A DNA stretch of 40,633 bases from a virus, in IMG/VR virus record IMGVR_UViG_3300042309_000334, positions 1-40,633 of that record. One strand, given 5' to 3'. Positions 1-29,100 of the stretch are shown piece by piece; the first letter of the stretch is position 1, and each line of letters opens with the position of its first letter. Under the pieces are notes generated by a model, which was not told where the DNA came from, ran no database searches, and saw nothing but the letters and a program-made list of their open reading frames with translations. The translations under genes and the position numbers were made by a program.

Positions 1-3000
1 TGCTTCTTGTGGGAAGGTATGCTCTGATCTGCCCTCTGTTAGCCGCATCAACAAGCTCAGGGCTGAAATCCATGTAAAAACCTTCGTCCGTATCGATGTA
101 GTCAATATTCCCCTTCTGAACTTCGCCTATTGCTTTCTCAAGGCTATTAAATTCTCCAGCTTCTTCATCAGGGCGCGTTGGATCTGTAGGATCTTTTGGA
201 TCTTTATAGCCGCGATACATAGGCGTTCCGTCTAGCCGTTGTGTTCTATCCAACCTGTGAGGACTAGGAACAGACAGGGGAAACAGCTTCATCTTGTATT
301 TCTTCAACCAAGCGCTGACTTCATTTTTCAAAATCTTGTCATAGTACGGCTTGTATTTAGTTCCTCCGTACCAGACTGAACCCAACTTCGGATTATATGT
401 CTGAACCTGTGGATTTGCCGTGTTGACCATTCTTTCAACCAAGTCTTTTGGAAGAATATCTGTCAGAGACTTATCGATAAAATCCATCCTCAACGCGCCC
501 GGCGCATACGCTTGATCTATTACCTTCAAGGTCTGTGGATCAACCCGCAAGTTCATATACGTTGACGAACTTGGATAGATTCTTACTTGTAGCGTGTCTT
601 TAATGTCTGGGCTATCGGCTGTTCCTAAATCTACGGGCATTTGCTCCCACTGAATTTTGTGGGCTGGGGCCATGTTACGCCAGCGCCTTGACTGAGTTTC
701 TCCTCCTGACCAGAACAAACCCGTTTGTCCGTTACGAACGGCTTCAATGATCGCTGATTTTATAAGAGCCAATCCCCACTCTCTGCTTTCGGGAAACGGA
801 GTTTCTGGAGGAGCGTCATAGTCCTCAATCTTGCCTTCGCCTCGTTTAATTTTCAGCGTATAATTTGGCTCACCAGTAGGCTCAACTAATCCTTCGGAAT
901 AATAGCCCTTGCTCCAATTGCGATTGTACCTATCTATGTAATCTTGCGCTTCTGCCTCAGTCGAAAATCCTTGGCGCAGCATAATGGGATATGTGATGCC
1001 ATCTTGAGTCATCTCAACGTCATAACTAGGAGCCTGCTTCCTGAAACCGCGAGGAACCCCGCCTCTTTTATCTTGGCCTTCAAGAGGCTCGCGAGTTACG
1101 GGATCAACCATTACCCTAGCAGCCTGCATCCGATCACTTTGAAGTTCATGGACGTGCGAAATATCCTTCAAATGACTCATGCCAGTGCCGCCCCATGATT
1201 TAGGAATTTCAGGGGTTGTATAAGTCCATCCACGATAAGCTGCATAAAAATCTGCTTCTTTCGGGCTAATCAGTCCTTTTTTGACTGCTACTTGCAAAGC
1301 TCCTGTGCCGTACTTATCCATAGAAGGAAGCGGCCCATAAGATTCTGGAGACAAACTTCCCTCCGTGCGTTGTTTTATAAGAACAGGCTCAACTGCTTGA
1401 ACTATCGATGCTTCAATGTCAGGAAGTTTCCTGAGCGTAGGATCAAGTATATAACGATCACCAAGCCTCATATGGGCTATGTAATATGGATAATCTGAAT
1501 AGTGAGTAGCGGTATATTTAAGATCACTATATCTGCGATAGTCGGAATCTGAAAGTGTGCCTTCGGCATATTCACCAATTTGTTTTCTGGCATTAAGCTC
1601 TTTGACTACTTTATTGGCCGCTGCCTTAGTCTTGTGCCACCCGGGTACGCTCGCTGCTCCATAACCACGATGGTCTTGCCATTGCTGTTTGGGCCTAACG
1701 GCATATTGACCAGTTACAGGAGATCGATTTTCGTCACGAAAAACCTCGTATTCAATTATGTCTATAGGGGGACGAACTTGCAGGACTTTTTCGCGATAGT
1801 TCCTATCGCCTGTGGTTCTGTACTCAGCATGACGAGTATCAGACGTATCTCCATATGCTCCAATCTCTGGATACCAAAGAGGAGCCAAGTCTCCATACAT
1901 GACTGTATTGCTCAGGCGCTCTGGATCATTGATCAAAGTGTTTATTTGTCTGTACAAAGATTCCCTTGATGCTTCGTCTTCGGCCTTATCTCCTAAATCC
2001 TGAATATCTTCTCTTTCTTCAATTCTGTCTTTTTTGACATCTCTTATCTCCACCGCATCGTCTAAAAGTTCCTGAGCAACAACTGTGGCCCTGTCAACAT
2101 TGGCTGTTCCGCCTTCGACATGATCTTTCTGTTGCGCTTCTGACATTATTCGATTTGCGCGTTCTCGCTCTTGCTGATATTTAGCGTCAACTTCCTCATA
2201 AGCGTAATCGATTAGATTTCTATATCGCTCGCCAACACTGTTGGAAATATTTTCTGCGGCGTCCGCTGTGTTTCTAGTAAATCTTTCGGCCTCAACTAAA
2301 CCCATTTCATCAATCATCCGAATAGCTTCTAAGGCCGCAAATTTTTCGTAATCCCATCCAGCAGCCTTTGCTGCCTCAACTGCCCTATCTCGCGCTTGTC
2401 TATGATCCTGCCTGCGGACATACGGGTTTTCAGTAACTGTTTTCGGGTTGTCTTTATAGATCTGCTGAACCTCTTTGCGAGCAAGTGCATATCTGTTCAA
2501 ATAAAGATCGGCCTGTTCTTTCAGCGTTTTGTAAATCCTCTTTCCTTTCGGATCCATCTGCTTCCAAGAAATGCGATTGCCTAAGGAACCAAGTGTGCTG
2601 ATTGAAAACTTTGTGGAGTTTTGCCTGAGATACTCCATCAGATCAGCCTTATCGATATTCTTGCCTCCCTTACCAAGGATATCTATGCCCTCCATGATCT
2701 TGCTCCAGCGAACCTCTGCCGCTTTGATGCCGTTGCCCGGGTTAAGGATAATGGCCTTGAGTTGTTCTGCAGGCACTGACTTCCCTTGAATCTTCTGCTG
2801 AAGAACATCCTCTAGTTGGCTCATAAAGCCGGGGAAGACTCGCTCATCTAGTGTCAACTCACGTTTCGGAAGGAATTGGCGAGCAATCTCTGATTCGATT
2901 TCTCGCCTTGGGAGGAAATTCTTTTTGGCTAGATCGTAAGATATAGGCAACGGATCGAATCCGCTTTCAGCAAGTTCAGCAATGTGGTCAATCCGCACTG

Positions 3001-6000
3001 ACATGATAGTGCGGTCAAAATCAAGACCCTTCGGATCGCCCTTCCTGCGCGGGGTTCGCGTTCTATCGGGATTAAATCCTTCGGTTTCCTTGTCAAAAAG
3101 ATTGAGGAAATCGTCAAAGATATTTCGCTTTTGAGCAGCGACCTTTGGATCAGCGTCCAGCACTGTTGCCTTTATAGTATTGCCGTCAGCATCAACTTTT
3201 GTGGCAATAGTTCCAGCGTCAGTATAGCCACTGCCCGGTAACCCCTTCGTCCAGTTGTCTAGATAAGCCTGTGTAAACTCTGTCCAGAATGCCTGTTTGC
3301 TTCCCTGCCAAAACTGTAACCGCAACGGCATTCTTTCCGCCCATGCGTCCAGTTTCCCAAACATTCTTCCTACAGAAATAGTAGTAGCCAAAAGATTGCC
3401 GTCCTTTGACAGCATCAATCCAATCGGCACTAGATCATAAATTTTAGGCGAAAATGCAACGTATTCGCCCTTGTCGTTCATCATAGGAGCGTAGTCGATC
3501 ATCATTCTTTCGCCGTTTCCGCGACGAATCATGTCATTGATCTGTAGGAAATAATCTTTGAGGCGCTTCGGTATGATTGACTCAGGCAAGTTTCTAATTG
3601 CCTCAATCTGCATATCGCTCAGCGTTCCGCGATACGTCTCGCCTCCCTTTTTTGTCGGATCAAACCTGTTTGGAGCGCCATAGTCAGGTGTATCCAGCGC
3701 CTCGTTGATGTACTTTTTGCGTAGTTTCGCCAGCTTTCTTGCCTCAAGTGGGCCTGTCCATTTAGGGCTTCCATCAGGGTTTGTCGCAATGCGCCCCCGA
3801 ATGGTGATTTTAGATCCTACTGGAAGTCCCGCCGTATTAACTTCAGAAGCAATAGGCCCATAAGTCTGTCCAATGGACGCAATTCCTTGATCAGATACGT
3901 TCCATTCACCCTCATATACCATCAAATCTTTGATGATTTGCGGCTCACCAATAACTTTGCCGTCTGGCCCCTCAATAACTGCGACAACCTCGCGTTTGAC
4001 TACGGGCTGCATCCATCCAAATCGCTCAAGAATGCCTCTGTTTTTGGCTTTGGATAACTCAAGTTTAGTGATTTTCGGAGGAGCCTCTCCCTGAATGGGG
4101 CTGCTTATTTGGCCTTGCAAGTCTTCTAGCTCTCGTAGCGCTTTATCAGCCATTGCAGAAATCTCTGGAGAGAACGTAACCCTACTTGCAGTCCCGTATC
4201 CCGCAAGACCGCTACGGAGAGTCCGCACCATGTTGCGGAATTCTCCCATTTTGAAGAACGTCAAAGCATTCTGAACAACCTGTCTCCGAATGTCGCTCTT
4301 TGAGTATCCGAAAAGCCTAGATATGGAGCCTCCAGCAAGATCCGACATGATCTCGTCCTGCATATACTTCGCTACACGGGCCTCATCTAATCCGTACTTG
4401 TTGGTTCCCGGCTGTTCAGCCGCAAATCTCATCATCATGCTCGCCTTAAATTCAGGTGTGGCTCCCGCCAAGTACCTGTTAACGAACATATCGGTTAGAT
4501 CAGCGTCTGAATAAACTCCATCAGTAGTAGCAATAACATTGCCCTGAGCGTCTTTGAAATCTTGCCTGAAAAGTTTCCTTCTTGCTGGCTCTGTAAGCTC
4601 TCGGAATTCAGGAACGTCACCAAGCAAGTGTCCAGCCTCATGTGCAAACTCTTCAATTGGGGTTCTTCCCAAGCTGTTCGCTCTTTTAACTACCTCGTCT
4701 GCATTGATAACAACTGAAGGTTTAAGATCGTCCATCCTTACTTGGACTCTTGACCCATCTTGTGGAGCCATGCCCGGCTTGTATTCTTTAGCCGTTGGAG
4801 CATCGTAAAAACCAGTTTGAGTCGCAGCCTCATTAATAGAGGCCATTATCTGAGGATTTCTTACAGCATCTGGATACTTTTTAAGCAGAAGGTTTCTAAT
4901 TTGCTCAGTTGTAAGGATGCGTAGATTGACGTTGTTTTGTCCTGTGCCAAAACCTCCGTTCACCAGTTCGTTGAATCTGGCAACTGTCGCCAAAAATTGC
5001 CTTCCGTATTCATTTTGAGTCTGAACGCCTGCTCGACGCATCCGTTTTGCAGCAATTTCATTCGCCCTAGCTGCCTTGGCAGCATCGTTCATCTCTTCCT
5101 TTAGGCGGCTGCGCTTCTCGGCCCGTGTTTCAGGGCCAAAATCGCGCCTCAAATATTTTTTCCCGTCAGCGCCAGTGAATTCAATGACCTTGAAGTCAGC
5201 TTTTCCAGCAGGAGCAGCCTCGGCAGGCTCTTTATCTAGAGCATCCAATTCTGTTTTTTTCTCCTGATACTTACGCTTTGCCGCTTCAGCGCTTTGCTGT
5301 TGTGCTCTGACGGCTGTTTCCCAACTGGTCAGTTTACCATCTAGGGTAGCCCTGTCTTCCACAGGGAGCGTTTGTCTAAATTTGAGGATATCGACATCCT
5401 GTTGCGCCCTGCGACGAGACTCCAAGATAGGATCGCTAGTGCCTAAAAGTTTATTTTTAACCCTGTTTTGACCTAGTCCAAAAGCCGTCCAAAGAAGACC
5501 TTCTCCGATAACTTGAGCCATCTGATCCCCATCCTGCGAGTCAACAACTCCTGTTGCTATGCCAACAAGTGTTGGCTCGACTCCAGCCTTTATAAGCTCT
5601 CCAGCATTATTGACGATGTTGTCTGCTCTTCGTCCACCAAACTGTAGAATTTTTTCTGCAGCACTTCCCTTTGCGATATTCGCTGCAGCCGTAGCTTCTC
5701 CAGCAGCGCCAGCTTTGGCGGCAGCAGCCTCTCTTGCCAATTTGGACATTGTCTCAAAGCGACCAACAGTGCCTCCTGCAGATACTCTTCCAGCCTCTAG
5801 GTAAGCCCTTAGAGAGCCGGGCGCTGAGCGCAACATTCTTCCTCCTAAAGCTCCTGCTATAGTTCCAGTAAGACTTTGATCATCGCCTGCAGCTAAATAC
5901 CCAACTCCCGCGCCAGCAGCATACGGGGCAACCCCTTGAAGAGCCTTAACAAACTTAATTTCTTTGTATGCCGCCTCAGCGTCTGAAATTTTCTTGTCGA

Positions 6001-7804
6001 TATACGCTGCTGCCTTTTCGGTTTTAGAAACTTTTTGTTTTGCATCAAGAGCGGCTCTTGCTTTTTTGCTTTGGGCCATGCGCTCGGCCCTTTGAAGAAC
6101 AGCAAGTTGTTTATCTGTCAGTCCCGCCGTCTGCATGGCGCGAACAAGTTTAGGAGTAAGCTGACTTCCAGCACTGACCAAGGCGCTTCCATAGCCAAAT
6201 GGCCCCATAGCCATAGCCTGTGGAAGGAACAGGTCGCCAGTAGCAGTAATGTTTGGGTTAAGTTCCCAAAGTGTTTGTTTTTGCTCTTCAAGATACTCGG
6301 AAGCACCTTGTTTCCTTGCTTCAATGTCTAGATTCCTTTGTTTTTCGGCCTGTTCTTTGGTCATGCCAAAGTCTTCCATGTAGTCCTCAACAGTCCCTAT
6401 GTCTTGCTGTGCAAGAGAAGAAATCAATGGGGCAACAGCGTCTAAATATCTATGATACGGAGTAGGGTTCTTGTTCTCGTACCACATTTTAGCGCCAGTG
6501 AACAAACTTCTGGCTCGGAAATTCTGGAAACTTTTCTCTCTACTTCCCCAAGGCATTGTCTCGTTCAGAAGATCGAATGCCTCAATTCCTCCTGCGCCAA
6601 CTTTCTGCCCAACTGCTGCAAGTTGGTATGGCTGATCTACGGCTGAAGCCAAATAGGAGGGAACAATGGCCTTTGCCTTGTTAACAATATCTTCGCGTTT
6701 CTTTAGAAGCTCTTCTCTTTGTTCAGGAGAGTATTCTTGTAGAACTATTTCCAACAATTGTGCTGAAGAATAATTCGGATCTAGTTCCGCTGCTCTGACT
6801 TTTTCCTGAACTACTTTCTTACGATCCTCTGGAAGTTGAAAAATAAGCTGATTCGCCATGCCCTCGTCACTTCCAGATGCAAGAGCATCCATAGATCCCA
6901 CAGCCGCTTCAACTCCTCCAGTTGCAGCACTTAATCCAAATGTTGCAAATCCAGAAGCGGCCTTTCCAGCAAGATCTATTGTTTTAGGGAAAATATTGAG
7001 CCAGCTTGCTTCATCTGTCGGGACGGCAGCTTTTAATGGACGTTGGTAGTCATATACCTTCCGATCCAACTCTTCGGTGAAGACAATATCTTCTCGTTGT
7101 TGCTTGACCGCAGAAAGCTCTGCTGGAGACAAGGAATTAAGCATCTCCTGTTCTTGCGGAGACAGGTCGAATCCCTGCTTTCCCCTGACTAAATACAGGA
7201 AAATCTCTGGTTGTTTTGTGGGAATCTTTTCGGGTTCAGTAGGCTCTTCTTTTGGAGCCTCGCCAATAAGTTTAGGGGCTTTTTGAGGCTCTTTCTTTTC
7301 TCCAAGAAGCCATGCCATTGCACCCTGATCAAGCGGACGCAATTCAGCGCCCTTAAATATTTCATCCGCTGTTACCTCTGGTTTTTTGGGAGCCATTCCA
7401 GCGTACTCCATGTACGCAGCGTCTCCCTTGACCTCTTCTTTTGGCTCTTTGGGTTCAGGTTTTGCGGCAGGAGTAACCGATTTTGGAGGAACATATGCTC
7501 CAGTTAATCCTCCAAGTTGCGACATTGGCTTTGGAGCCTGACCAACTTTAGGAAGCGGGGGAGGATTTACGCCTCTTGCTGCCTCAGTAAGAGGCTTTGG
7601 CACTTCAATTACTGGAAGAGGCTTTGCGGCTGGAACAGGTTGCCCCTGAGCAACCGCAGCGCGTTCACGATCTACTGTGTCTCTAGCAAGACCTAAAATA
7701 TAATCAGCAGAGTTTTGCGGATCGGTAAAAGCCTGTTTCTTTTTGGCCTCTTCCTCTTCAACTTGCCTTCTGGCCTCGGCTAAAATTTCATCTGCCTCAG
7801 TCAT
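1..7804 (-). CDS. Giant polyvalent-type virion (ejection) protein, partial at left edge
   Basis: The frame starting with ATG at 7804 stays open to the left edge, giving at least 2601 residues with no stop seen when I read it through. The N-terminal 200 residues are Pro/Lys/Glu-rich and look disordered. Gly/Ala-rich hydrophobic stretches occur near residues 620-650. A zincin-type motif HEAGH lies at residues 1055-1059, preceded by a helical EEFA and followed by an acidic segment. Near residue 2219 the sequence HELQSD occurs, with WSGGETQSRRW about 145 residues later (from 2365); this resembles an EIQSDWHQ-type domain known from phage and plasmid polyvalent proteins. Position at the end of the internal-protein cluster suggests a protein carried in the virion and injected with DNA. 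That role is inferred. The C terminus lies outside the window. Confidence 0.85.
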   Translation of the reverse strand, partial: MTEADEILAEARRQVEEEEAKKKQAFTDPQNSADYILGLARDTVDRERAAVAQGQPVPAAKPLPVIEVPKPLTEAARGVNPPPLPKVGQAPKPMSQLGGLTGAYVPPKSVTPAAKPEPKEPKEEVKGDAAYMEYAGMAPKKPEVTADEIFKGAELRPLDQGAMAWLLGEKKEPQKAPKLIGEAPKEEPTEPEKIPTKQPEIFLYLVRGKQGFDLSPQEQEMLNSLSPAELSAVKQQREDIVFTEELDRKVYDYQRPLKAAVPTDEASWLNIFPKTIDLAGKAASGFATFGLSAATGGVEAAVGSMDALASGSDEGMANQLIFQLPEDRKKVVQEKVRAAELDPNYSSAQLLEIVLQEYSPEQREELLKKREDIVNKAKAIVPSYLASAVDQPYQLAAVGQKVGAGGIEAFDLLNETMPWGSREKSFQNFRARSLFTGAKMWYENKNPTPYHRYLDAVAPLISSLAQQDIGTVEDYMEDFGMTKEQAEKQRNLDIEARKQGASEYLEEQKQTLWELNPNITATGDLFLPQAMAMGPFGYGSALVSAGSQLTPKLVRAMQTAGLTDKQLAVLQRAERMAQSKKARAALDAKQKVSKTEKAAAYIDKKISDAEAAYKEIKFVKALQGVAPYAAGAGVGYLAAGDDQSLTGTIAGALGGRMLRSAPGSLRAYLEAGRVSAGGTVGRFETMSKLAREAAAAKAGAAGEATAAANIAKGSAAEKILQFGGRRADNIVNNAGELIKAGVEPTLVGIATGVVDSQDGDQMAQVIGEGLLWTAFGLGQNRVKNKLLGTSDPILESRRRAQQDVDILKFRQTLPVEDRATLDGKLTSWETAVRAQQQSAEAAKRKYQEKKTELDALDKEPAEAAPAGKADFKVIEFTGADGKKYLRRDFGPETRAEKRSRLKEEMNDAAKAARANEIAAKRMRRAGVQTQNEYGRQFLATVARFNELVNGGFGTGQNNVNLRILTTEQIRNLLLKKYPDAVRNPQIMASINEAATQTGFYDAPTAKEYKPGMAPQDGSRVQVRMDDLKPSVVINADEVVKRANSLGRTPIEEFAHEAGHLLGDVPEFRELTEPARRKLFRQDFKDAQGNVIATTDGVYSDADLTDMFVNRYLAGATPEFKASMMMRFAAEQPGTNKYGLDEARVAKYMQDEIMSDLAGGSISRLFGYSKSDIRRQVVQNALTFFKMGEFRNMVRTLRSGLAGYGTASRVTFSPEISAMADKALRELEDLQGQISSPIQGEAPPKITKLELSKAKNRGILERFGWMQPVVKREVVAVIEGPDGKVIGEPQIIKDLMVYEGEWNVSDQGIASIGQTYGPIASEVNTAGLPVGSKITIRGRIATNPDGSPKWTGPLEARKLAKLRKKYINEALDTPDYGAPNRFDPTKKGGETYRGTLSDMQIEAIRNLPESIIPKRLKDYFLQINDMIRRGNGERMMIDYAPMMNDKGEYVAFSPKIYDLVPIGLMLSKDGNLLATTISVGRMFGKLDAWAERMPLRLQFWQGSKQAFWTEFTQAYLDNWTKGLPGSGYTDAGTIATKVDADGNTIKATVLDADPKVAAQKRNIFDDFLNLFDKETEGFNPDRTRTPRRKGDPKGLDFDRTIMSVRIDHIAELAESGFDPLPISYDLAKKNFLPRREIESEIARQFLPKRELTLDERVFPGFMSQLEDVLQQKIQGKSVPAEQLKAIILNPGNGIKAAEVRWSKIMEGIDILGKGGKNIDKADLMEYLRQNSTKFSISTLGSLGNRISWKQMDPKGKRIYKTLKEQADLYLNRYALARKEVQQIYKDNPKTVTENPYVRRQDHRQARDRAVEAAKAAGWDYEKFAALEAIRMIDEMGLVEAERFTRNTADAAENISNSVGERYRNLIDYAYEEVDAKYQQERERANRIMSEAQQKDHVEGGTANVDRATVVAQELLDDAVEIRDVKKDRIEEREDIQDLGDKAEDEASRESLYRQINTLINDPERLSNTVMYGDLAPLWYPEIGAYGDTSDTRHAEYRTTGDRNYREKVLQVRPPIDIIEYEVFRDENRSPVTGQYAVRPKQQWQDHRGYGAASVPGWHKTKAAANKVVKELNARKQIGEYAEGTLSDSDYRRYSDLKYTATHYSDYPYYIAHMRLGDRYILDPTLRKLPDIEASIVQAVEPVLIKQRTEGSLSPESYGPLPSMDKYGTGALQVAVKKGLISPKEADFYAAYRGWTYTTPEIPKSWGGTGMSHLKDISHVHELQSDRMQAARVMVDPVTREPLEGQDKRGGVPRGFRKQAPSYDVEMTQDGITYPIMLRQGFSTEAEAQDYIDRYNRNWSKGYYSEGLVEPTGEPNYTLKIKRGEGKIEDYDAPPETPFPESREWGLALIKSAIIEAVRNGQTGLFWSGGETQSRRWRNMAPAHKIQWEQMPVDLGTADSPDIKDTLQVRIYPSSSTYMNLRVDPQTLKVIDQAYAPGALRMDFIDKSLTDILPKDLVERMVNTANPQVQTYNPKLGSVWYGGTKYKPYYDKILKNEVSAWLKKYKMKLFPLSVPSPHRLDRTQRLDGTPMYRGYKDPKDPTDPTRPDEEAGEFNSLEKAIGEVQKGNIDYIDTDEGFYMDFSPELVDAANRGQIRAYLPTRS

Positions 7805-7805
7805 T

Positions 7806-9686
7806 TTAATCTACAGCAATTTCTTGTTCGTACTGAAGTTCTAGATCCCGTTGCTGTTTGATTAAATCTTGTAGTTCTGTAAATGCGCGTTGCCTTTCTT
7901 CGGGGTTATCTTGGAATCCCTGAACCTCTTGGACTTTTTGTTTGATCTTGAAATTAAGATTAGCCAGAGGATCAGGGGTTTTTAGATCAACTACAACCAT
8001 TTCTGGGCGTACGTTGTCTCGTTTTGCAAGTTCTGAGTAAATTGAAGACAGTTGGTTTTGTGCTCGTTGCCTTTGCACGTAGAGACTTTTAGCCACTCGC
8101 ACAAATTCTTTACGCTGATCGTCGCCAAGTCTTCCGCCAGTGATTAATCTGTTATATTCGGCCTGAATTCTTTGTGGAACGCCTGCTGCATTTTGGGCAT
8201 TTGCAAATTCGCCCTCTCGGACAGTCGAGCCCGGATCTAGCAGCTTCATATAACTGAAAATAAGCGCTAAATCCGCCGCGCCTTGGCTTGCGGGATTCTT
8301 TGCTGCCAGTTCAGCAGCCCTATTGATGTTCCCGAAAGCGTCCTGAACGATTAGATAGTTCTTTGAGCCATCTAAATATTCTTTACGTAGCTTGGCCTCC
8401 CTATCGCTATCAGGGCCAGCGGCCTGTTCGGACTTGGCTATTGCTGCTTTTTCGGCCTGAGTCATAGGCTCAGGCATAGAAACTTCCCAATAGTCAACGC
8501 CTGCAACATCATCGAATTGCTTTTTCACCTGTGGCTTGTTGTAGCCTTCGGGAACAGGCAATTGCTGCATAGCGAATGCATCTTCCTGATTTGCAAAAGA
8601 GCCTGATTGAAAGTCAGGATGTAGTCCCTTCAGAGGAGCCTCTTGTGCTGCTTTTCCAGCAACTGCAGCAGGCATAGCGGCCAAAGTAGGCTGAGCAGCA
8701 TTGATTCTTGCGGCTTGTTGTACAGCACTACCAACAGCGGCTGAGCGCACGTCTGCTCGCAACTGTTGTTCTTGTCTATTAGGAGGCAGCACAGCCATGT
8801 TTACAGGGCCAGCAAGAGAAAGCTCTGAAAGAACGCTGCTTATTGCTTCGCTAGGTAGCGTTGCGGCGGGAGCATTCTTATCAGCACTTGCAACTGCACT
8901 GCTAAGCGCCTTCATCGGATCAATATTCAGCTTATAGGCAGGATCACTAAGATCGATGTAGTAATTTTTATCCTCAGAAGCGCTGGATATAGGAGCAATA
9001 GGCGCAATGTCCTCAGTTCCCTGTGCGCCCGGCACAAACGGCGCAGGCATTGTATCCAAACGAAACGGCTGCTCTAAAGGAGTCCGTTTCGGCATATTTT
9101 CTTGGTATGGATTGTCAACTGGAAGCAACTCAGGCAATGGTTCTTCAGGAGGAAGATCTTCAGGAAGAATATCAAGGTTAGGATCGGGAGGCATTCCGCC
9201 TTCATTCTCATCTTCAGCATAGCCAGAAGCATTTTTCTTCTCTGGAATGGCAGTTCCACCAATTAGCTGTCTTGGCTTTTTCTTATTTCCTCCAACCTCT
9301 TCAAGGCGCTTTGCAGCAGCCTCACGCATATAATCAATGCGCTTCTGCAGAGCCTCTGAACTTCTGGCTGATTTAATGCCTTCGATCTCTAGGTTACGCA
9401 AATGCTTGCGCTCTTCTGATTTTAAAGCCTCACCCGCCTCATAGTTAGCCATGTATCCCTTAATGGCTCCTCCAGCAATATCTGCAAGTGCTCCAGCGCC
9501 AGCAGTCATGGGCGCATATCTCTTGTCATCCGCCAAAGCGTATGAGGAAAGAGGATCGGCCCTGAATGTTGCAGGGGCAAAAGAAAGAGATACTGGCCCA
9601 AGCCCTTCTAAGGCTGAGGTAATTTTAGCCTGTCGAGGGGTAAACGCATATCCCGCAGTTTCCGCCGACATCGGGATCGCTGCCAT
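7806..9686 (-). CDS. 626-residue internal virion / ejection protein
   Basis: ATG at 9686 follows a GGTGGGG sequence contributed by the end of the preceding gene. The N-terminal 85 residues contain LADDKRYAP at 51-59, a motif repeated near the C terminus of the small protein at 10821-11342. Residues about 85-140 are charged and helical. A long Pro/Glu/Ala-rich linker follows. The C-terminal third has a helical block around residues 465-560 with LIFSYMKLLDPGSTVREGEF at its core, a signature I recognise from internal or structural proteins of many podoviruses and siphoviruses. The gene ends one base before the giant ORF begins, so the two are probably translated from one message. A role in the internal core or in DNA ejection is inferred. 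Confidence 0.85.
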   Translation of the reverse strand: MAAIPMSAETAGYAFTPRQAKITSALEGLGPVSLSFAPATFRADPLSSYALADDKRYAPMTAGAGALADIAGGAIKGYMANYEAGEALKSEERKHLRNLEIEGIKSARSSEALQKRIDYMREAAAKRLEEVGGNKKKPRQLIGGTAIPEKKNASGYAEDENEGGMPPDPNLDILPEDLPPEEPLPELLPVDNPYQENMPKRTPLEQPFRLDTMPAPFVPGAQGTEDIAPIAPISSASEDKNYYIDLSDPAYKLNIDPMKALSSAVASADKNAPAATLPSEAISSVLSELSLAGPVNMAVLPPNRQEQQLRADVRSAAVGSAVQQAARINAAQPTLAAMPAAVAGKAAQEAPLKGLHPDFQSGSFANQEDAFAMQQLPVPEGYNKPQVKKQFDDVAGVDYWEVSMPEPMTQAEKAAIAKSEQAAGPDSDREAKLRKEYLDGSKNYLIVQDAFGNINRAAELAAKNPASQGAADLALIFSYMKLLDPGSTVREGEFANAQNAAGVPQRIQAEYNRLITGGRLGDDQRKEFVRVAKSLYVQRQRAQNQLSSIYSELAKRDNVRPEMVVVDLKTPDPLANLNFKIKQKVQEVQGFQDNPEERQRAFTELQDLIKQQRDLELQYEQEIAVD

Positions 9687-9691
9687 AGGAA

Positions 9692-10225
9692 TTAAGCCCC
9701 ACCAAACGTTAAGTTATTGGTAGTTGGAATAGTAAACTGATTTTGGCGTGAAGGCGTTCCACCAGTTTGCTGATTCACAGCAGCAGCAACAGCAGGATTA
9801 ACCCCTGTTGCCGTAGCATTATTGGTAGCAGCAGGGCCAGCAGCGTACGGAGTAATTCCAGCAACTGCTCCTGCTCCAGCTACGTTACCAAGAGCCTGCA
9901 TCCTTGCGGCATTGATATCGAATCCAGCGCCTCCGCCAAGATTGGCATTTGCCATAGCTTGTTGGTTTTTAGCTGTCGCATCAATTGCCTGCTGAGAAGC
10001 CTGCATTCCAGTGAGAGATTGCTGAGCTTGCTTTTGTGATTGCTGTTGTAGCGTTTGGGCCTGTGCGTTTTCAGCAGCAATGTTTTCTTGGCGAATCCTT
10101 TCGGCCTCAGCAGCGGCTGCAGCAGCAGCTTGCGCGGCCATTGCAGTTTGCATGGCCTGCATGGCCGCATATTGATTGCTTGAAGAAGAACTACTGCCCC
10201 TATTACTAGATTTTCTTCCGCCCAT
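9692..10225 (-). CDS. Small Ala/Gln-rich virion-cluster protein, paralogue 2
   Basis: A 177-residue protein beginning MGG, then a Ser-rich stretch, an Ala/Gln-rich helical segment (about 20-95), the conserved patch GGGAGFDINAAR (about 97-108), an Ala-rich linker and the C-terminal block NQFTIPTTNNLTFGGA. The same architecture and both conserved blocks occur in the next gene upstream (10227-10751), so the two are a tandem duplication. The upstream paralogue's final FGGA codons supply GGAGGAGC about 7 bases before this ATG and act as the ribosome binding site. I do not recognise a named family. Location next to the large internal proteins suggests a minor virion or ejection role. Confidence 0.85.
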   Translation of the reverse strand: MGGRKSSNRGSSSSSSNQYAAMQAMQTAMAAQAAAAAAAEAERIRQENIAAENAQAQTLQQQSQKQAQQSLTGMQASQQAIDATAKNQQAMANANLGGGAGFDINAARMQALGNVAGAGAVAGITPYAAGPAATNNATATGVNPAVAAAVNQQTGGTPSRQNQFTIPTTNNLTFGGA

Positions 10226-10226
10226 A

Positions 10227-10751
10227 TTATGCTCCTCCGAATACTAAGTTTTTTGTATTTGGCAACGTAAACAAATTGCTTCGTTGCGACGATCCTCCAC
10301 TTCCCTGATTCAGGGATCCAGCAGTTGTCATCGCTGGATTTGTGAGTTGGGGATTCGCAGCAAGATTGGCTGCAGTCGCAGGGAGAGTTGTAGACGCAGC
10401 GCCAAGATTTGCCAAAGCAGCGTTTCTTGCAGCATTAATGTCATATCCTCCTCCTGTCGCGGAAAGTCCTGCAGCTTCTTGTTCTTTTTGATATGAAGTC
10501 TTCTTTGAAGCGTCTTCAAGACTCTGCATGGATTCCATGCGTTTCAACGTATCCACAGCGGCTTGCTGCGATTGAGTCATGCGCTGTTCAGCAGCTTGAT
10601 TTTCCGCAGCAAGTGCAGCTTCGCGTTGAGCGCGAGCAGCTTCAGCAGCAGCTTGCTGTGCCGCCTGCTGCTGAGCTTGCATCATAGCCATCATCATAGC
10701 CATGCTATTATCTTGTTTTGGGGGCTTACCCCCGCCTTTTGATCCGCCCAT
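10227..10751 (-). CDS. Small Ala/Gln-rich virion-cluster protein, paralogue 1
   Basis: A 174-residue protein starting MGGSKGGGK, followed by a Met-rich patch, an Ala/Gln-rich predicted helix (about 22-75), the patch GGGYDINAAR with a following ALANL, a low-complexity linker and a C-terminal NLFTLPNTKNLVFGGA. It is clearly paralogous to the 177-residue neighbour at 9692-10225. A strong Shine-Dalgarno AGGAGG lies 9 bases before the ATG. No enzyme motif is visible. Length, composition and position between small and large internal proteins fit a structural or ejected protein, but the function is unknown. Confidence 0.85.
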   Translation of the reverse strand: MGGSKGGGKPPKQDNSMAMMMAMMQAQQQAAQQAAAEAARAQREAALAAENQAAEQRMTQSQQAAVDTLKRMESMQSLEDASKKTSYQKEQEAAGLSATGGGYDINAARNAALANLGAASTTLPATAANLAANPQLTNPAMTTAGSLNQGSGGSSQRSNLFTLPNTKNLVFGGA

Positions 10752-10791
10752 AATAGTTTTCCTCCTATTGGTTTAAGTTATTCTTAGATTC

Positions 10792-10811
10792 CCTTGGACA
10801 AAAACCCAAGG
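10792..10811. other. Small intergenic hairpin
   Basis: In the 69-base gap between two small virion genes, ccttgg pairs with ccaagg across an 8-base loop. No T-run follows on the minus strand, so it is not a typical intrinsic terminator. It may tune or protect the message upstream of the strong AGGAGG ribosome binding site of the next gene. Confidence 0.35.
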
Positions 10812-10820
10812 AAAATATTG

Positions 10821-11342
10821 TCAAGTTTTTGGTTGTCCATACGCTGAAATTCCAGTTGTGACAATATCAGTCAAAGCCTTAACCCAAGCAGCATTTGGAG
10901 CATACCTGTTGTCATCGGCTAGTTGAAAAGAAGCTGGATTGTCTGGTTGGAATGTAAATCCGTTCTTTCCCTGACTTTGTTGCTGCATACTAGCCCATTG
11001 CGCTGCTCCAGTTGCTTGTTTTTGGGATTCAATTGCCCGTGAGAAGGCATCAGAAACGCCTGATGCTGCATTTTGAGCTAATTGGGCCATTAATTGCTTA
11101 TTTCTTTCCTTTTCAGGCTCCCCAAAAAGCTGATTTTCGGCCATGAGTTTTTGGGCATAGTTCTGGCGAGCCTCGCGCATTGTTCCCATTTGAGGCATAG
11201 CCATCTTATTTGCTGCATAATCGGAAGCAGTTGGAAGCGTTGCCTGCATTGTTGTGGCTTTTGCGCTCGGAAGAGTCGCTTTTGGAGCAAAAATCTGTCC
11301 GCTCATTGCTCCTGTTGAAGTTGGTGTTTTAGATCCGCCCAT
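10821..11342 (-). CDS. Small virion-cluster protein with LADDxRYAP module
   Basis: A 173-residue protein with the MGG start seen in four genes of this cluster (MGGSKTPTS). The N-terminal third is Thr/Ala/Met-rich, the middle (about 55-122) is helical and Gln-rich. The C-terminal block contains LADDNRYAP at residues 141-149, preceded by FQPDNPASF and followed by a helix rich in Ala, Val and Ile. The same module sits near the N terminus of the 626-residue protein at 7806-9686. No clear Shine-Dalgarno precedes the ATG; the leader is A-rich. Function unknown; a virion or ejection role is inferred from context and the shared module. Confidence 0.8.
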   Translation of the reverse strand: MGGSKTPTSTGAMSGQIFAPKATLPSAKATTMQATLPTASDYAANKMAMPQMGTMREARQNYAQKLMAENQLFGEPEKERNKQLMAQLAQNAASGVSDAFSRAIESQKQATGAAQWASMQQQSQGKNGFTFQPDNPASFQLADDNRYAPNAAWVKALTDIVTTGISAYGQPKT

Positions 11343-11364
11343 ATTATTGATTCATTATTGGGTT

Positions 11365-11643
11365 TTATAGTCCAGCAGCGCTTCTTGCCTCTAGGCACAG
11401 AGCGCTTCCCGGCTCAAATTTTTGACACGCAAGTGGCCTGCAATCATAGATTTTACAGGAGACGCATTTCCCAACACGTCCGCTCAGCGCAATGCACCTG
11501 TTATTCGTCGTTTTCATCAATGGATAGTCGCTCCTGACCATCGATTTTGGAATTCTGATAGCATCCGCAAGGTCTTTTTTAAGCACAGGCCATGACCACT
11601 TATACGAACAACAGGCTCCACATTGCTGGCAGTCATATTTCAC
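11365..11643 (-). CDS. YkgJ-type Cys-rich (Zn/Fe-chelating) protein
   Basis: The N terminus carries the CxxCxxCC arrangement (CQQCGACC, residues 5-12 from the GTG start), followed later by CVSC, C in a KIYDC context, RPLAC and QKFEPG. This matches the YkgJ / CxxCxxCC domain, a putative zinc or iron-cluster chelating family of unclear reaction. I chose the GTG at 11643 because it overlaps the previous stop as GTGA and has AGAGAAAGAG in front; an in-frame ATG at 11664 would add seven residues. It directly follows the PAPS-reductase-like gene, so the two probably act together. The pair sits among virion genes without any obvious structural role. Confidence 0.8.
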   Translation of the reverse strand: MKYDCQQCGACCSYKWSWPVLKKDLADAIRIPKSMVRSDYPLMKTTNNRCIALSGRVGKCVSCKIYDCRPLACQKFEPGSALCLEARSAAGL

Positions 11644-12500
11644 TTCTCTTTCTCTGTGTCCCATTCAACTGGCCTAAATCCAAGGTCAGGAATAACAACA
11701 TCTTCGTATGGCGCTGAGCCTGAAATGTTAGAAATTGTCGCGTTCAGCTTTGGACAGTAGACATATTTGTCTTTGTGGCGATCAACACAGTTGAAACACA
11801 CAGGATAAAAGTCTGCATTCAAAGACTTGTCAGGATTGTTGATCCATTCGCCTTCAACTTTGATATAACGTGTTGGATCAGGCTCGACGTTATTGTCTTC
11901 CAGATATTGGAAAATATCTTTGTCAGTCCAATCGCGCATTGGATAAAGCGAAACTGGAGATCCTTCATTGTAACGGATATCCAAAGCCAAAGGAACATGG
12001 CCCTTAATTAGATCCGTATCACAATATTTCGTTCCGATATAAACAGCGCCCCAAATCCAGTTAAAAGAGCCAGTGGGCCTGTATAGAAAATCGTCAACTC
12101 CGCAAAGATACTTGCTAGAATCAAGAAGTTCATCAAAAGTTGGGCGTTCTGTTCCCAAAGACAGTCCAACGCACTTGGAACCCCATTGGTAATATTTCAG
12201 CATATCAAAACGAGGCTCACCCGTTTCGACATCAGGCCCGTCAGTTATGGAAACCTTTAGAGGGGCATAGTCATAAACTTCAAGATTCCAATCTTTGATG
12301 AGTTTATCAGAGTACGCATAACGCCAGCGGAATTTTGGCTCTCTGAATTGAATCACTGGAATGTTGATATTGCATTTGAAGCGAATCAAATGGAGCAGTG
12401 CCGTTGAGTCTTTTCCTCCAGACCAAAGCACAACTGCGCGAGGCCAGCGTTTATGCCAGCTTTGAATCTTATCAACTGTGATATCTATTAGTTCTTTCAT
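11640..12500 (-). CDS. PAPS-reductase-fold (PP-loop) protein
   Basis: The 286-residue product has a PP-loop SGGKDS at residues 27-32 behind a hydrophobic strand, and further on YPMRDWTDKDIFQYLEDN, typical of the phosphoadenosine phosphosulfate reductase / ATP sulfurylase CysD fold. The terminal ECGLH motif that supplies the catalytic Cys in true PAPS reductases is not seen. Instead there are Cys residues at CFNC and YCPK near residues 230-250. It is therefore better called a PAPS-reductase-like adenylating protein; roles could include sulfur transfer to nucleic acid, as in DndC-like enzymes, or sulfur metabolism. It overlaps the YkgJ-type gene by 4 bases. Confidence 0.88.
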   Translation of the reverse strand: MKELIDITVDKIQSWHKRWPRAVVLWSGGKDSTALLHLIRFKCNINIPVIQFREPKFRWRYAYSDKLIKDWNLEVYDYAPLKVSITDGPDVETGEPRFDMLKYYQWGSKCVGLSLGTERPTFDELLDSSKYLCGVDDFLYRPTGSFNWIWGAVYIGTKYCDTDLIKGHVPLALDIRYNEGSPVSLYPMRDWTDKDIFQYLEDNNVEPDPTRYIKVEGEWINNPDKSLNADFYPVCFNCVDRHKDKYVYCPKLNATISNISGSAPYEDVVIPDLGFRPVEWDTEKEK

Positions 12501-12501
12501 T

Positions 12502-13323
12502 TTAAATGATAACAGCGCCTAGCGCGGCTCCTGCAATTGCCCCTCCAGCGCCAATGTAAGCGCCCGTCATAGCATTTTTTCCAGCAGCATTTGCCGCAGC
12601 CCCCTGATAAAGCATCTGCTGATATGCTTGCTGATTTTGCCTATTTGCTTGTGCAAGACTTAGCAGATCATTTGACCCAGAACTGATGAAATCAGCAGCG
12701 GATTGATTCAATCCTTGCGCTGCCCCAAGAAGTCCCTTCTGCCAGTTTCCAATAGCCTCCATGTTCGCAACCTCTGCAGCTTGTTTTCCCTCCATTAGCT
12801 TCCCCGGGTCGATTCCTCCCGTGGGAGCGCCATACGTATTGAGATATCCTTGCTGTGCTGCCAGATTTCCAAGTTCAAAATCACGTCCAGCCTGCACAGC
12901 CATATCATACAGCGCCGATCTTCCAATCGTGCTGTCAGGATCAATTCCAGTAGCAGACAAAGCAGTAATTCCTTTTGTCTTTGCCCATTCTTCCATCTGT
13001 TTCTTCCAAGCATCACGGGATGTCGCTTGCTTCAGTCTTTCTGGAACATCTCGACGCATTTCTGCTGCCGCAGGACTTGCCATCTCTTCGTACTTTCTAG
13101 AACGAGCGAGATTAGCCATTCCAAGTTCTGCAGCTTCTTGAGAAACTTGCATCGGACTAAACTCCTGCTGCATCGGCTTAATGTTTGATGCCAGCTTTAA
13201 AAATTCAGCTTGGTTTTTAAGAACCATCAAGCCCTGTTGGTTTTTCTGGCCCAAAAGCATGGCTTCCATCTCCATGCTTGGCCGCTTAATGTAGTCGCCA
13301 GCGTTTACGCTTTGTCCTCCCAT
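12502..13323 (-). CDS. Probable ejection protein with hydrophobic Gly/Ala tail
   Basis: ATG at 13323 follows AAGGAG at a spacing of 7 bases, giving a 273-residue protein beginning MGGQSVNAG. Most of it is helical and Gln/Ala-rich, with segments such as SQEAAELGMANLARSRKYEE. The last 25 residues are a Gly/Ala-rich hydrophobic stretch (GAYIGAGGAIAGAALGAVII) that could insert in a membrane. Such helical proteins with a membrane-active end are common among podovirus internal proteins that form the injection conduit. No enzyme motif is visible. It opens the left-hand internal-protein module, just after the small tail-linked genes. Confidence 0.8.
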   Translation of the reverse strand: MGGQSVNAGDYIKRPSMEMEAMLLGQKNQQGLMVLKNQAEFLKLASNIKPMQQEFSPMQVSQEAAELGMANLARSRKYEEMASPAAAEMRRDVPERLKQATSRDAWKKQMEEWAKTKGITALSATGIDPDSTIGRSALYDMAVQAGRDFELGNLAAQQGYLNTYGAPTGGIDPGKLMEGKQAAEVANMEAIGNWQKGLLGAAQGLNQSAADFISSGSNDLLSLAQANRQNQQAYQQMLYQGAAANAAGKNAMTGAYIGAGGAIAGAALGAVII

Positions 13324-13327
13324 AAAT

Positions 13328-13720
13328 TTACTCCTTCGGTATTTTGATTTCGTAGATTTCTCTGTTTGTCGGAGTAAGACCAATTTTGGTCATTACATCG
13401 TCTGGAAAATTTGGTCTATCGCCCTTCATCGGAACTCCAATATATGCAAGTGATCCTGACATCTGAACGAATGTTACATAGTCATTAATCACCCTATAAA
13501 CGTCTCTTGGCCTCGTATGTTTAGGATGAAATGCTGGATAAACTGTTGGGACATAAACCCAATCAGAATATCCGATTAATTGATTATCTCTGTAATGTCC
13601 AACCACATTGATTGCGGGGTGTTCATTGATTTCATGGTCAAACTCTTTTGCAAAATCAACAGCCTCCAAGAACTCGTTAGTTCCGTGTCTAAGTATTTTG
13701 TAATTTATGCGTTTATTCAT
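13328..13720 (-). CDS. Small protein, possibly GNAT-like
   Basis: A 130-residue protein with GGAAGG about 8 bases before its ATG. The pattern of N-terminal helix, then strands around VVGHYRDNQLIGYSDW, a VYPAFHPKHTRP segment and LAYIGVPMKG, is reminiscent of the GNAT acetyltransferase fold, and a GNAT-like small protein sits near internal proteins in T7-type phages (gp13). I do not see a clear acetyl-CoA binding R/QxxGxG/A motif, so enzymatic activity is doubtful. It lies between the nozzle-like gene cluster and the ejection cluster. The safe call is a conserved-looking hypothetical protein. Confidence 0.75.
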   Translation of the reverse strand: MNKRINYKILRHGTNEFLEAVDFAKEFDHEINEHPAINVVGHYRDNQLIGYSDWVYVPTVYPAFHPKHTRPRDVYRVINDYVTFVQMSGSLAYIGVPMKGDRPNFPDDVMTKIGLTPTNREIYEIKIPKE

Positions 13721-13721
13721 G

Positions 13722-13967
13722 CTATGACCTTCCTACAGAAACCTCAGTCTTCGTTGTATATCCAGCAAATCTAGCGGCTTCTTCCTGAATAACTTTTACC
13801 CTGTCTTTAAAAGTTCCACAGACAACACACGGCAAACAGTCTCCATCTTTGTATCCGCTAAATGGTATTGATGAATACAGCGGAATGCTTGAGGTATCAG
13901 AAAACGGACTAATGAACTTATTGGGGAAATAAGTCACTGGAACAGAGGCATCTGATATATTCGGCAT
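13722..13967 (-). CDS. Small hypothetical protein after nozzle gene
   Basis: The frame is open further upstream, but the ATG at 13967 starts immediately after the TAG of the nozzle-like gene and gives an 81-residue product, which fits the tight packing of this genome better than a 148-base overlap. The product is Ser/Pro-rich at the N terminus, has CLPCVVC in the middle (a possible metal or disulfide site), and ends with a charged helix (VKVIQEEAARFAG). No family is recognised. It ends one base before the next gene. Confidence 0.65.
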   Translation of the reverse strand: MPNISDASVPVTYFPNKFISPFSDTSSIPLYSSIPFSGYKDGDCLPCVVCGTFKDRVKVIQEEAARFAGYTTKTEVSVGRS

Positions 13968-13968
13968 A

Positions 13969-16095
13969 CTAGCAGGGATTTGAAATCTTGTATTGATAGG
14001 CAGCGGCGTTTGCGGCCTGCTGCGCCAAAATTCCAGCTTGTTCTTCAGCGTCTGTGAAGGAAATAAATGACAAATAAGAGGCTGTGGCTGTGGCAGAAAT
14101 TGATGGATATCCGACACATGGCAGAGTCACTGTGCGATATACCTTGGCAAAAAACGTCTTGTTCTCACCTTCAACTCCAGTTTCTGGACTAGGTTTAATA
14201 TCAATGCTTATTGACTCTCCGCTTTCGCCAACAACGCAGGATTCGACCTCATTGGTATTTGGAATACCGACAGACCTTTCGCTCCAAGGGTCTTCAAATA
14301 CTCTGACAATCTCGACGCCAAGTTCTCCGCACCATTCAATTAACAAAGAAAATGCCTTGTCTATGTCAGCCGTTAAGGGACTCTCGCACGTCTCGTATTG
14401 AGCATTTCTTACAGCGCTTTCTGTTACTAACCTTCGATACTGGCTGCTGAGAAATCCCAAATTATTAATTTCATCTTCAAATGGTGTATTTTCGTACTGG
14501 TATGGATCGGTTACAGCTAAAAGTCTGCGCTCAAGAACTTTTTGATAAGATCCCTTGCTACCCCTAAAACTGGCTCGTACATCAACTGTTCCGCCGATCT
14601 CTTTGCATTCAATTTCTGCATACGCAAACTGCTTGAGATCCATGCCGTCACCCATTTGGGCAGTCTCAATCTGGCTATAAATCCTATTATAGAATCTAGT
14701 GGTTGTTCCATCTTGATTAATCCTTAGATAGGAGTCAGCCCGATACGGCATAAATGACTCCCATAAGTGGTTATATGAGCCGTCATTCGTTGCCGTGTAA
14801 TCGATGGAGAAGTGAAAGCAGCGAGGTTGCCCATCTATAACGCCTGTAGTCCACTCTACAGGACGTGTTCCCTCCCAAGTGCCGCACCATGCTGGTGTTC
14901 TGGCCTGACCCCACTCAGAGGCTGCTGCGTAGTCTAAAACCATCGTAGAGGAATTGACAGGTTCCAAGTATGGAACGGAATACAGCAGATAGTTTTCAAA
15001 AGAGGCAGCACATATCTGACTTTGATTTCCAGCCATGTATCGCTTGGTTCGGGCCATCTCAATGTCTTTATACAAGACCTGAGATGACAAATATGAGGCA
15101 GCAGCAACGTCAGCCGCTACCAAGCCACCCTGTGAGTACCACCACATTTGTCCTGCTTGAAAAGCAATGCTTTTTCCAGCAACACATCCAACTGTTGGAT
15201 ATAGGGTGTTTTGGAAATTTGGAGTAGAAGCCCATTGGCCGCGATCCAAAATGCCTGAAGCCAGTGAAAAGGTCGCCCTATCAGTAAAAACAATCAGTCT
15301 TGTGTCCGTATTCTGTCCTACATAGCTGACCAATCCAGTTACAGGTCTTGAAAAGCTAAAATCTCCACGTCCTGTACCAGCAGTGCGCTCATTCCAGCTT
15401 GTAGGATCACCAAGATCGGATGCCAGAACAATATTTTTGTCAGCAACCCACAGGCGATTTCCAGAAAATGCCATCCATGTTCCGACAGGAATTTTGTCAC
15501 TTTGGACTCCAGTTGTGTTCGACCCATCCCAATAAGCAGGAGAAGAAACCCCATCCTGAATCATTACCACTCTGTGAGATGGGGTAACAGTTGTGTCTCC
15601 ACCGCTTGATGTATTCGCAGATCTTGTGGCTAGTGTAAAAATGCACTGACTAACATTCTCGTCTAATTTGATTCCTGTCAGCTTATAGTCTTCCCAATGA
15701 AGGGGTTGAACCAATGGAAACGGAGCATAGTAAACGCTCCCATTAACAGCGAAAAGCATATAGCTTAATTCATCAACGGCAACGCCTTTCCCGTTCACGT
15801 CAAAAATTTGACGAGGGATTGTTATAGTTTGTCCGTTTACTGTTTTCTTTTCGGCTGCTTGGGATTGCTTATTAGCAGCAAAAAAAATTCCTCCCTGAAG
15901 ATTGCCGGGCGGCAACGAAAGCCGCATTGCATAGCCGGGCCTCGTCTGTGCGATACCGCCGCGAACAGAAACATTAACGCCCCACTTCAGTTGATTCTCC
16001 GAAAGATTCCAAGAATTCCTGACACTATTAACGCCTTGAATCCAACCAGAAGTGATTTTAACAAGCCTTCCAGCCGTTATTTGATCAGACTTCAT
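13969..16095 (-). CDS. Tail nozzle-like (tail tubular protein B-like) protein
   Basis: A 708-residue beta-rich protein whose start overlaps the adaptor-like gene as ATGA. The N terminus (GRLVKITSGWIQGVNSVRN, then NQLKWGVNVSVRGGIAQTRPGY) has the layout of podovirus nozzle proteins that open with a statement of gene-product contacts followed by a beta-propeller. The middle contains WMAFSGNRLWVAD, ASDLGDPTSW and VSYVGQNTDTRLIVFTDRATFSL, typical of the propeller blades of such proteins. Length and order after the adaptor fit gp12 of T7 (about 790 residues) in role. Sequence identity with T7 gp12 is not obvious, so the assignment rests on layout and motif style. Confidence 0.7.
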   Translation of the reverse strand: MKSDQITAGRLVKITSGWIQGVNSVRNSWNLSENQLKWGVNVSVRGGIAQTRPGYAMRLSLPPGNLQGGIFFAANKQSQAAEKKTVNGQTITIPRQIFDVNGKGVAVDELSYMLFAVNGSVYYAPFPLVQPLHWEDYKLTGIKLDENVSQCIFTLATRSANTSSGGDTTVTPSHRVVMIQDGVSSPAYWDGSNTTGVQSDKIPVGTWMAFSGNRLWVADKNIVLASDLGDPTSWNERTAGTGRGDFSFSRPVTGLVSYVGQNTDTRLIVFTDRATFSLASGILDRGQWASTPNFQNTLYPTVGCVAGKSIAFQAGQMWWYSQGGLVAADVAAASYLSSQVLYKDIEMARTKRYMAGNQSQICAASFENYLLYSVPYLEPVNSSTMVLDYAAASEWGQARTPAWCGTWEGTRPVEWTTGVIDGQPRCFHFSIDYTATNDGSYNHLWESFMPYRADSYLRINQDGTTTRFYNRIYSQIETAQMGDGMDLKQFAYAEIECKEIGGTVDVRASFRGSKGSYQKVLERRLLAVTDPYQYENTPFEDEINNLGFLSSQYRRLVTESAVRNAQYETCESPLTADIDKAFSLLIEWCGELGVEIVRVFEDPWSERSVGIPNTNEVESCVVGESGESISIDIKPSPETGVEGENKTFFAKVYRTVTLPCVGYPSISATATASYLSFISFTDAEEQAGILAQQAANAAAYQYKISNPC

Positions 16096-26896: not shown

Positions 26897-26916
26897 GTGA
26901 TCAAGTGACTTCTAGA

Positions 26917-28342: not shown

Positions 28343-28370
28343 AAGTAGTGACTTATCTAATTTTTGTCAA
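28342..28370 (-). promoter_or_regulatory. Candidate sigma70-type promoter ahead of capsid
   Basis: On the minus strand TTGACA (28370-28365), at the very end of the preceding gene, is followed after 17 bases by TACTTG (28347-28342). The -35 box is perfect and the spacing ideal, but the -10 box is poor. If used, it would start a capsid transcript with a leader of about 210 bases. Confidence 0.25.
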
Positions 28371-29085
28371 GCATCTTTTTTATTAGGGTATCTATTGGGA
28401 CAAAATCCCCATCTATAGAATGGTGCGTATTCTCGTATGAGACGATGGAATCTGGAAGTGGAGGATGCACCTCCTGAATAAGCGGATGATTCAATCCAGA
28501 CGCAATCCAGCATGGCGCTGACTGATTTCCGATAAATATAGCACTTCCATAAATAAGCTGAGCTAACTCAAGCAAGTTGTTAACCCATATACTTGGAACC
28601 TCTCCAAATCTGCTGACAAAATCTCCACGTTCATCATACAAACCGATAAAAATTATTTTGTTCCTGTATTTATCTACAATTTTTGACCAAGGAAAACTGT
28701 CATTCCTATACCTATGCGATCTGCAGCATACGATTCTTCCGTTTGTTCGCGTATCTGGAGAAACGTCGATCCATTGTGACGTGCTAGGATGCTCAATACC
28801 TAGCATTTTTGCCTGCATTCCAATGATCGGATACTGCCCCCAATATCTCCTGAATCCACAAGCATCGTGATCAATGTTTGTCGGATTCTTCTCGTATGAA
28901 ACGGAATCAATATACGGCTGGATTTCAAGCAGTGGCTTTAATGAGTCATACTTGAATCCCTCCATTAACAATTGCGGCTGACTATTGTGATCTGTAATGA
29001 CGAGATGCCCCCCGCCAAGCGCCCTCATGCATGGGAGAAACGCAATAATATCCCCAATATGACCCGAATGCAGGAACCTTTTCAT
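28357..29085 (-). CDS. Glycosyltransferase (GT9 / heptosyltransferase-like)
   Basis: The 242-residue protein opens MKRFLHSGHIGDIIAFLPCMRALGG, with HSGHIGDI at residues 6-13, the hallmark start of ADP-heptose:LPS heptosyltransferase-like GT-B enzymes. A C-terminal Rossmann-like part follows (IIFIGLYDERGDF, LAQLIYGSAIFIGNQSAPCWIASGLNHPLIQ), matching the donor-binding half of GT9 proteins. At 242 residues it is shorter than bacterial heptosyltransferases (about 320-350), like other phage-borne members. It is the third sugar-transfer gene in a row and lies just before the capsid leader. Confidence 0.8.
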   Translation of the reverse strand: MKRFLHSGHIGDIIAFLPCMRALGGGHLVITDHNSQPQLLMEGFKYDSLKPLLEIQPYIDSVSYEKNPTNIDHDACGFRRYWGQYPIIGMQAKMLGIEHPSTSQWIDVSPDTRTNGRIVCCRSHRYRNDSFPWSKIVDKYRNKIIFIGLYDERGDFVSRFGEVPSIWVNNLLELAQLIYGSAIFIGNQSAPCWIASGLNHPLIQEVHPPLPDSIVSYENTHHSIDGDFVPIDTLIKKMLDKN

Positions 29086-29100
29086 CTTGTGAATCCCTCA

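Follow-up and report, generated by a model that had tools for sequence, protein, structure and literature searches.

Does the long open frame at the left edge of this viral DNA encode a real protein and, if so, what does that protein do for the phage? The window, i.e., the whole stretch of DNA that was analyzed, comprises the 40,633 bases of a linear virus record. The frame in question is:

2..7804, minus strand: giant gene, 2601 codons, with its 3′ end outside the window; the intact homologue in L001 encodes 3740 amino acids.

The frame starts with an ATG, contains zero internal stops, and is still open at the left edge. The base composition of the gene itself predicts about 148 stops, and the log10 probability of finding none is about −66. 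The remaining two frames of the minus strand have stops all along positions 2-7804, and a codon-position GC bias spans the entire frame. The start codon overlaps the stop codon of the preceding gene, which codes for a 626-amino acid protein, within the sequence TAAAATG, and therefore both genes are probably translated together. A whole copy of the giant gene (L001) is present in an independent IMG/VR contig, G001 (61.5 kb), from a sister phage, so the open frame is not an accident of assembly. The original prediction of a single minus-strand frame of at least 2601 residues that leaves the window was confirmed by the missing stops and the intact L001 copy; the gene is real and incomplete. An exact DNA scan with the sequence at the window edge retrieved no overlapping contig, and the 3′ end was not recovered. 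In L001, large open reading frames resume 1.1 kb and 2.5 kb past the giant gene. The remainder of G001 includes capsid, portal, terminase, and tail genes as in the window, plus replication genes. Its gene order suggests that the contig is nearly complete and, with respect to the window, circularly permuted.

The giant gene is preceded by the following neighbors:

7806..9686, minus strand: 626-amino acid protein in the second ejection-protein slot (phrog_13634, E 5e-26).
9692..10225, minus strand: 177-amino acid Ala/Gln-rich protein, putatively in the small ejection-protein slot; most loci with upstream sequence have a positional homologue.
10227..10751, minus strand: 174-amino acid Ala/Gln-rich protein, a paralogue-like neighbor of the 177-amino acid protein; both queries match the same homologues.
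13969..16095, minus strand: 708-amino acid putative tail protein, at the start of the conserved block (phrog_511, E 1.7e-5).

Residues ~412-566 of the 626-amino acid protein match P22-type DNA-transfer and Mx8 virion proteins. Its similarity to SEN22_13, the middle one of the three "DNA transfer" proteins of the P22-like Salmonella phage SEN22, is confined to this domain (34% identity over ~113 residues, E 1e-5). Homologues were detected immediately upstream of the giant gene in L001, L098, L105, and L108. Among relatives for which upstream sequence is available, most have an Ala-rich gene ~1.6-2.3 kb ahead of the giant one. The 708-amino acid tail protein is syntenic in L001, L172, L173, L174, L175, L177, and L178. 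The order of the block, namely this tail protein, two small genes, often a PAPS-reductase-like and a CxxCxxCC gene, the Ala-rich genes, and the giant gene, is kept in the relatives whose flanks extend that far. Judged by gene order, the giant gene occupies the position of the third ejection protein of P22-like phages, and the synteny bears out the earlier statement that it ends the ejection module. The window shares with the P22-type set (gp7, gp20, and gp16) the three-gene order and a domain in the neighbor at the gp20 slot. However, the third gene of that set codes for ~690 amino acids (SEN22_14) compared with more than 2600 here, with undetectable similarity; the giant protein matched no phage record in tblastn and no PHROG family.

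The PAPS-reductase-like and CxxCxxCC genes (window 11365-12500, minus strand) lie inside the virion/ejection block, an odd position for metabolic genes, and homologues of one or both are found at the same place in L133, L105, L126, L169, L136, L176, L177, and L178. The tail-region protein encoded at 20320-22713 (minus strand) matches three PHROG families of regulator of chromosome condensation (RCC1), with E values down to 2e-36, and also has weak tail-fibre matches. A 368-codon open frame at 26905-28011 (plus strand) is antisense to the putative 402-amino acid major capsid gene; the sister has a similar antisense frame (L004 8365-9477). Such a frame probably mirrors the codon bias. The putative capsid and scaffold genes are separated by three genes (28357-30821, minus strand) that are also kept in the sister, and the 378-amino acid protein among their products has a weak glycosyltransferase PHROG match.

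Searches of Pfam, PHROGs, NCBIfam, PDB sequences, and phage records with the whole window protein returned no clear relative, and a search for a transmembrane stretch in the window copy found none. Matches of the window copy to an M61 peptidase (E 0.15) and to NHLP (E 0.05) were judged to be due to chance. The L001 protein shares 80% identity with the window protein over window residues 31-1638. At the DNA level, the 78% identity ends where FLPRR is encoded (window residue 1630), and past this word no significant similarity was detected. The conserved N-terminal part is referred to as the head and the region that follows it as cargo. Relatives of the head were gathered by scans from the sister's ART module, the window's module, and the window's head. 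There are 22 of them, L001 included, all in other uncultured phages. A search of bacterial genomes found none and therefore pointed to no prophage or host. The features of the head are:

2900..5092, minus strand: head core, residues 905-1635, conserved in 22 relatives; modeled with AlphaFold2.
4628..4642, minus strand: HExxH motif (HEAGH), residues 1055-1059, putative zincin active site, invariant in 23/23.
4352..4354, minus strand: Glu1151, candidate for the third ligand of the zinc, in a helix farther downstream; invariant alignment column, model helix 237-254.

The HExxH motif is at the identical place in all 23 proteins (the window copy and its 22 relatives), and both the motif and Glu1151 are invariant across a 19-row alignment in which identity to the window ranges from 28 to 85%. 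The head ends at one shared position in 23/23, mostly at the word N-[FYWM]-[LM]-P; L125 has NWMA and L176 has NMMP. In the AlphaFold2 model of residues 905-1640, of moderate quality (mean pLDDT 69.9), HExxH and Glu1151 are on helices and the residues after FLP are disordered. A PDB fold search with this model gave no confident relative; YbeY metal hydrolases were among the best matches, with a Foldseek probability of only ~0.5 and E above 0.5. The HExxH motif together with the distal Glu suggests a putative zincin peptidase. The head is called zincin-like because of the motif and the predicted secondary structure, the PDB fold search being unconvincing.

The region behind the head has the following features:

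2903..2917, minus strand: linker 1, FLPRR, residues 1630-1634, the head end; L001 homology stops here and the model is disordered afterwards.
2861..2875, minus strand: linker 2, FLPKR, residues 1644-1648, start of cargo module 1.
20..2860, minus strand: cargo module 1 ("ELQSD" module), residues 1649-2595, with homology to L060, L028, and L024.
1475..2599, minus strand: stretch inside cargo module 1, residues 1736-2110 (~375 residues), matched in 0/22 related proteins.
5..19, minus strand: linker 3, YLPTR, residues 2596-2600, directly before the window edge.

Cargo module 1 lies between FLPKR (1644) and YLPTR (2596), is a member of a large family in phages whose signature is E[LVI]QSD, and is homologous to L060 1323-1843, L028 1736-2249, and L024 1413-1884. 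Relatives of this module are encoded in at least 543 stretches of IMG/VR. A pattern scan for viral relatives with the window cargo region alone found none, and cargo relatives were reached only through the sister's ART module. A match in the Dolichospermum phage Dfl-JY45 covers L060 1325-1843, the stretch between two L060 linkers. The L060 copy of the module was modeled with a pLDDT of 83. Comparison of this model with PDB folds produced nothing convincing, and only a 49-residue dsRBD-like match reached high probability. The model strongly matched predicted phage proteins, of which three have polyvalent or polyvalent-associated annotations; among the annotations are "ART-PolyVal-like" and "large polyvalent protein associated". 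ART-PolyVal was found above the Pfam cut-off in L001 (two matches in its C-terminal part), L060, and L028, with no Pfam match in the window copy. The C-terminal part of L001 also has weak GNAT matches, and Pfam GNAT domains occur among the relatives. A giant structural protein, e.g., a tape measure or tail component and not an injected effector carrier, would fit a gene located within the structural operon, but the C-terminal modules are exchangeable, those of relatives resemble enzymes (ART, GNAT), and the gene comes after the ejection proteins, so we regard this possibility as highly improbable. The probable alternative is a polyvalent-type carrier, with a zincin-like head and exchangeable modules joined by linkers, that would be packaged and ejected.

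The cargo regions of the relatives showed other arrangements. A C-terminal tail module is conserved at the end of ten relatives, including L060 (2231-2639) and L001 (3305-3742), and may also occur in the portion of the window gene that lies past the edge. Compared with L009 (6986-13987), L010 (6629-13963) has an extra module of more than 100 residues between FSVSS and FSISP, at a place where L009 has one FSISP joint, which indicates gain of a module at a linker of another type. In L014, head and cargo are in two overlapping frames (2838-8063 and 8030-13861), and its close relative L028 has one open reading frame; the difference may stem from an error in sequencing, programmed frameshifting, or a gene that is divided in two.

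The linkers are concentrated behind the head. There are nine F/Y-L-P-x-R/K words in L001, all from residue 1619 on, compared with 0.28 expected overall. Among 18 head-bearing proteins, [FYWM][LM]P was found 87 times in the cargo regions (13.2 expected) and 6 times in the heads (12.1 expected). Linkers also mark the module boundaries: the ELQ module starts 5-12 residues after a linker in 13/14 cases and the L028-type module 5 residues behind one in 6/6 cases, with 6% expected within 15 residues. The tail module starts 19-58 residues from a linker, partly since the tail-module reference was cut short. In each protein, the same module is followed by that protein's own word, the end word of the ELQSD module being YLPTR in the window, FLPSR in L060, FMPAV in L028, and FSPQI in L024. 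The similarity of linker words is 0.50 within a protein and 0.40 between proteins (permutation p 0.0002). Two wider sets were assembled, one via ART modules and one via ELQSD modules, with some proteins common to both. In these sets, counted without tree-based control for relatedness and with repeated ART modules included, the four-letter joint word recurs in its own protein 50 times vs. 7.2 in other proteins (ART-module set) and 27 times vs. 6.8 (ELQSD-module set). The match within proteins may be partly due to descent, the words being common to related phages. The residues that follow a linker are disordered in both models, that of the head and that of the L060 ELQSD module. Since the last six residues in the window are YLPTR and one more residue, at least one further module is expected beyond the edge.

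The linkers could be mere joints, i.e., flexible spacers at recombination boundaries that resemble each other through shuffling within a lineage and are not cut. This is quite possible, if short of probable. Module exchange at joints is evident, with L001 homology ending at the first linker and the extra module of L010 relative to L009 at an FSxSP joint, and a beads-on-a-string architecture connected by flexible linkers has been described for N4 vRNAP (PMC12633501). On the other hand, the codons of the nine L001 linkers differ, which indicates that the protein sequence is what is kept and weakens the notion that the linkers are merely copied DNA seams. The linkers of L014 and L028 are closer in codons, and copying may have occurred there. 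A pure spacer, moreover, does not need an aromatic residue, a Leu or Met, and a Pro at every joint.

A specific form of the carrier reading, which we put forward tentatively, is that the zincin-like head cuts its own chain at the lineage-specific linkers. Each joint would be cut, in the capsid or after entry, freeing independent effectors. A reader acting in trans would explain why there is one word per protein and why this word differs among lineages even after the same module, and the variable codons in L001 and the disorder of the linkers in the models are in agreement. In addition, autoproteolysis by such peptidases has been proposed, with the processing of P1 DdrB cited (PMC5512222). However, N4 vRNAP, which likewise has a peptidase domain, is packaged unprocessed, and L019 and L029 have recurrent linker words with no HExxH seen by eye, although their open reading frames may be incomplete. 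Linkers that act as docking motifs, by which a capsid, scaffold, or ejection protein holds each module during packaging, would likewise yield a single word per lineage and an exposed placement; with no partner seen, and with exact placement at every module boundary unexpected for docking, this explanation is unlikely.

Comparison with known systems bears on the preferred reading, that of a polyvalent-type carrier. Polyvalent proteins have been proposed to be co-injected with DNA and perhaps self-processed (Iyer et al. 2017, PMC5512222), and the zincin-like HExxH is their commonest domain type (PMC5512222). The window protein shares with them a very large multidomain architecture near late genes, the zincin-like HExxH and, in relatives, ART and GNAT domains. 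HEXXH is present in 23/23 and Glu1151 is invariant in the 19-row alignment, both in predicted helices and with weak fold support, and the gene stands beside late virion genes in a conserved block that extends from the tail protein to the giant gene. Disparate domains are combined in the complete L001 chain (zincin-like head, ART-PolyVal, and GNAT-like), and the window copy has the zincin-like head plus one module with no assigned activity. The peptidase-like head, the gene context, and the domains present in relatives support polyvalent membership, and the protein would work most like a polyvalent protein delivered with DNA. The earlier reading as a probably injected polyvalent protein is partly supported by comparison, through context, HExxH head, relatives' ART-PolyVal and GNAT domains, and cargo fold; sequence searches with the window's own copy alone recognized no known domain. 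The constant-head/variable-cargo plan and the linkers are features that this prediction did not mention. Polyvalent proteins are described as being without the constant N-terminus/variable C-terminus plan known from secreted toxins (PMC5512222), whereas the head family described here does follow it. The word "linker" is absent from the main text of PMC5512222, and no description of a repeated joint motif was found there.

The bacterial polymorphic toxins share a constant N-terminal part, exchangeable C-terminal modules, and a peptidase domain. They differ in depending on a secretion system and in having one toxin tip, whereas here there is a phage virion operon and several cargo modules per chain; Pfam, PHROG, and NCBIfam scans showed no N-terminal secretion-system domain in the window copy. 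The N4-type gp50-gp51-gp52 set (Schitoviridae) also has a giant last ejection protein beside smaller ejection genes. In the N4 operon, the neighbors of gp50 have 644 and 150 amino acids, and the domains of gp50 are on flexible linkers (PMC12633501); the Ala-rich, 626-amino acid, and giant genes of the window resemble the gp52-gp51-gp50 trio. Unlike gp50, the window copy lacks hydrophobic N-terminal segments, and there is no sequence match between them. No RNA polymerase domain was found in the window copy with Pfam, PHROGs, or NCBIfam, and there was no PDB sequence match.

We propose that the carrier would be packaged alongside the ejection proteins and enter the cell in the position of the third one. 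Its constant N-terminal head of ~1635 residues would hold the zincin-like metallopeptidase domain, and exchangeable effector modules would follow as beads separated by short exposed linkers, with one word per protein. The head may dock on, or follow, the channel-forming proteins, and the modules may traverse the channel singly and in turn. The linkers could serve as a flexible string for threading or as cut sites that free the modules. A bolder version, which we consider rather doubtful, is a widespread delivery polyprotein in which the zincin head travels with the ejection proteins and cuts the effector string at a linker word private to the lineage. If so, peptidase specificity and linker would co-evolve, and any effector with the right linker could join the string.

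The polyvalent kind of protein is known. Two features appear to be new: the plan in which a constant head carries exchangeable cargo, and a linker word specific to each protein. The available portion of the PMC5512222 text states no cut positions in polyvalent proteins, and the repeated linkers provide exact, testable positions for the cutting or jointing of such chains. They also provide a rule for module boundaries in giant phage proteins without recognizable domains, and this rule predicts another module of the window protein past the left edge. If the linkers are cut or docking sites, they would reveal a way for phages to load multiple effectors in the form of a single packaged protein.
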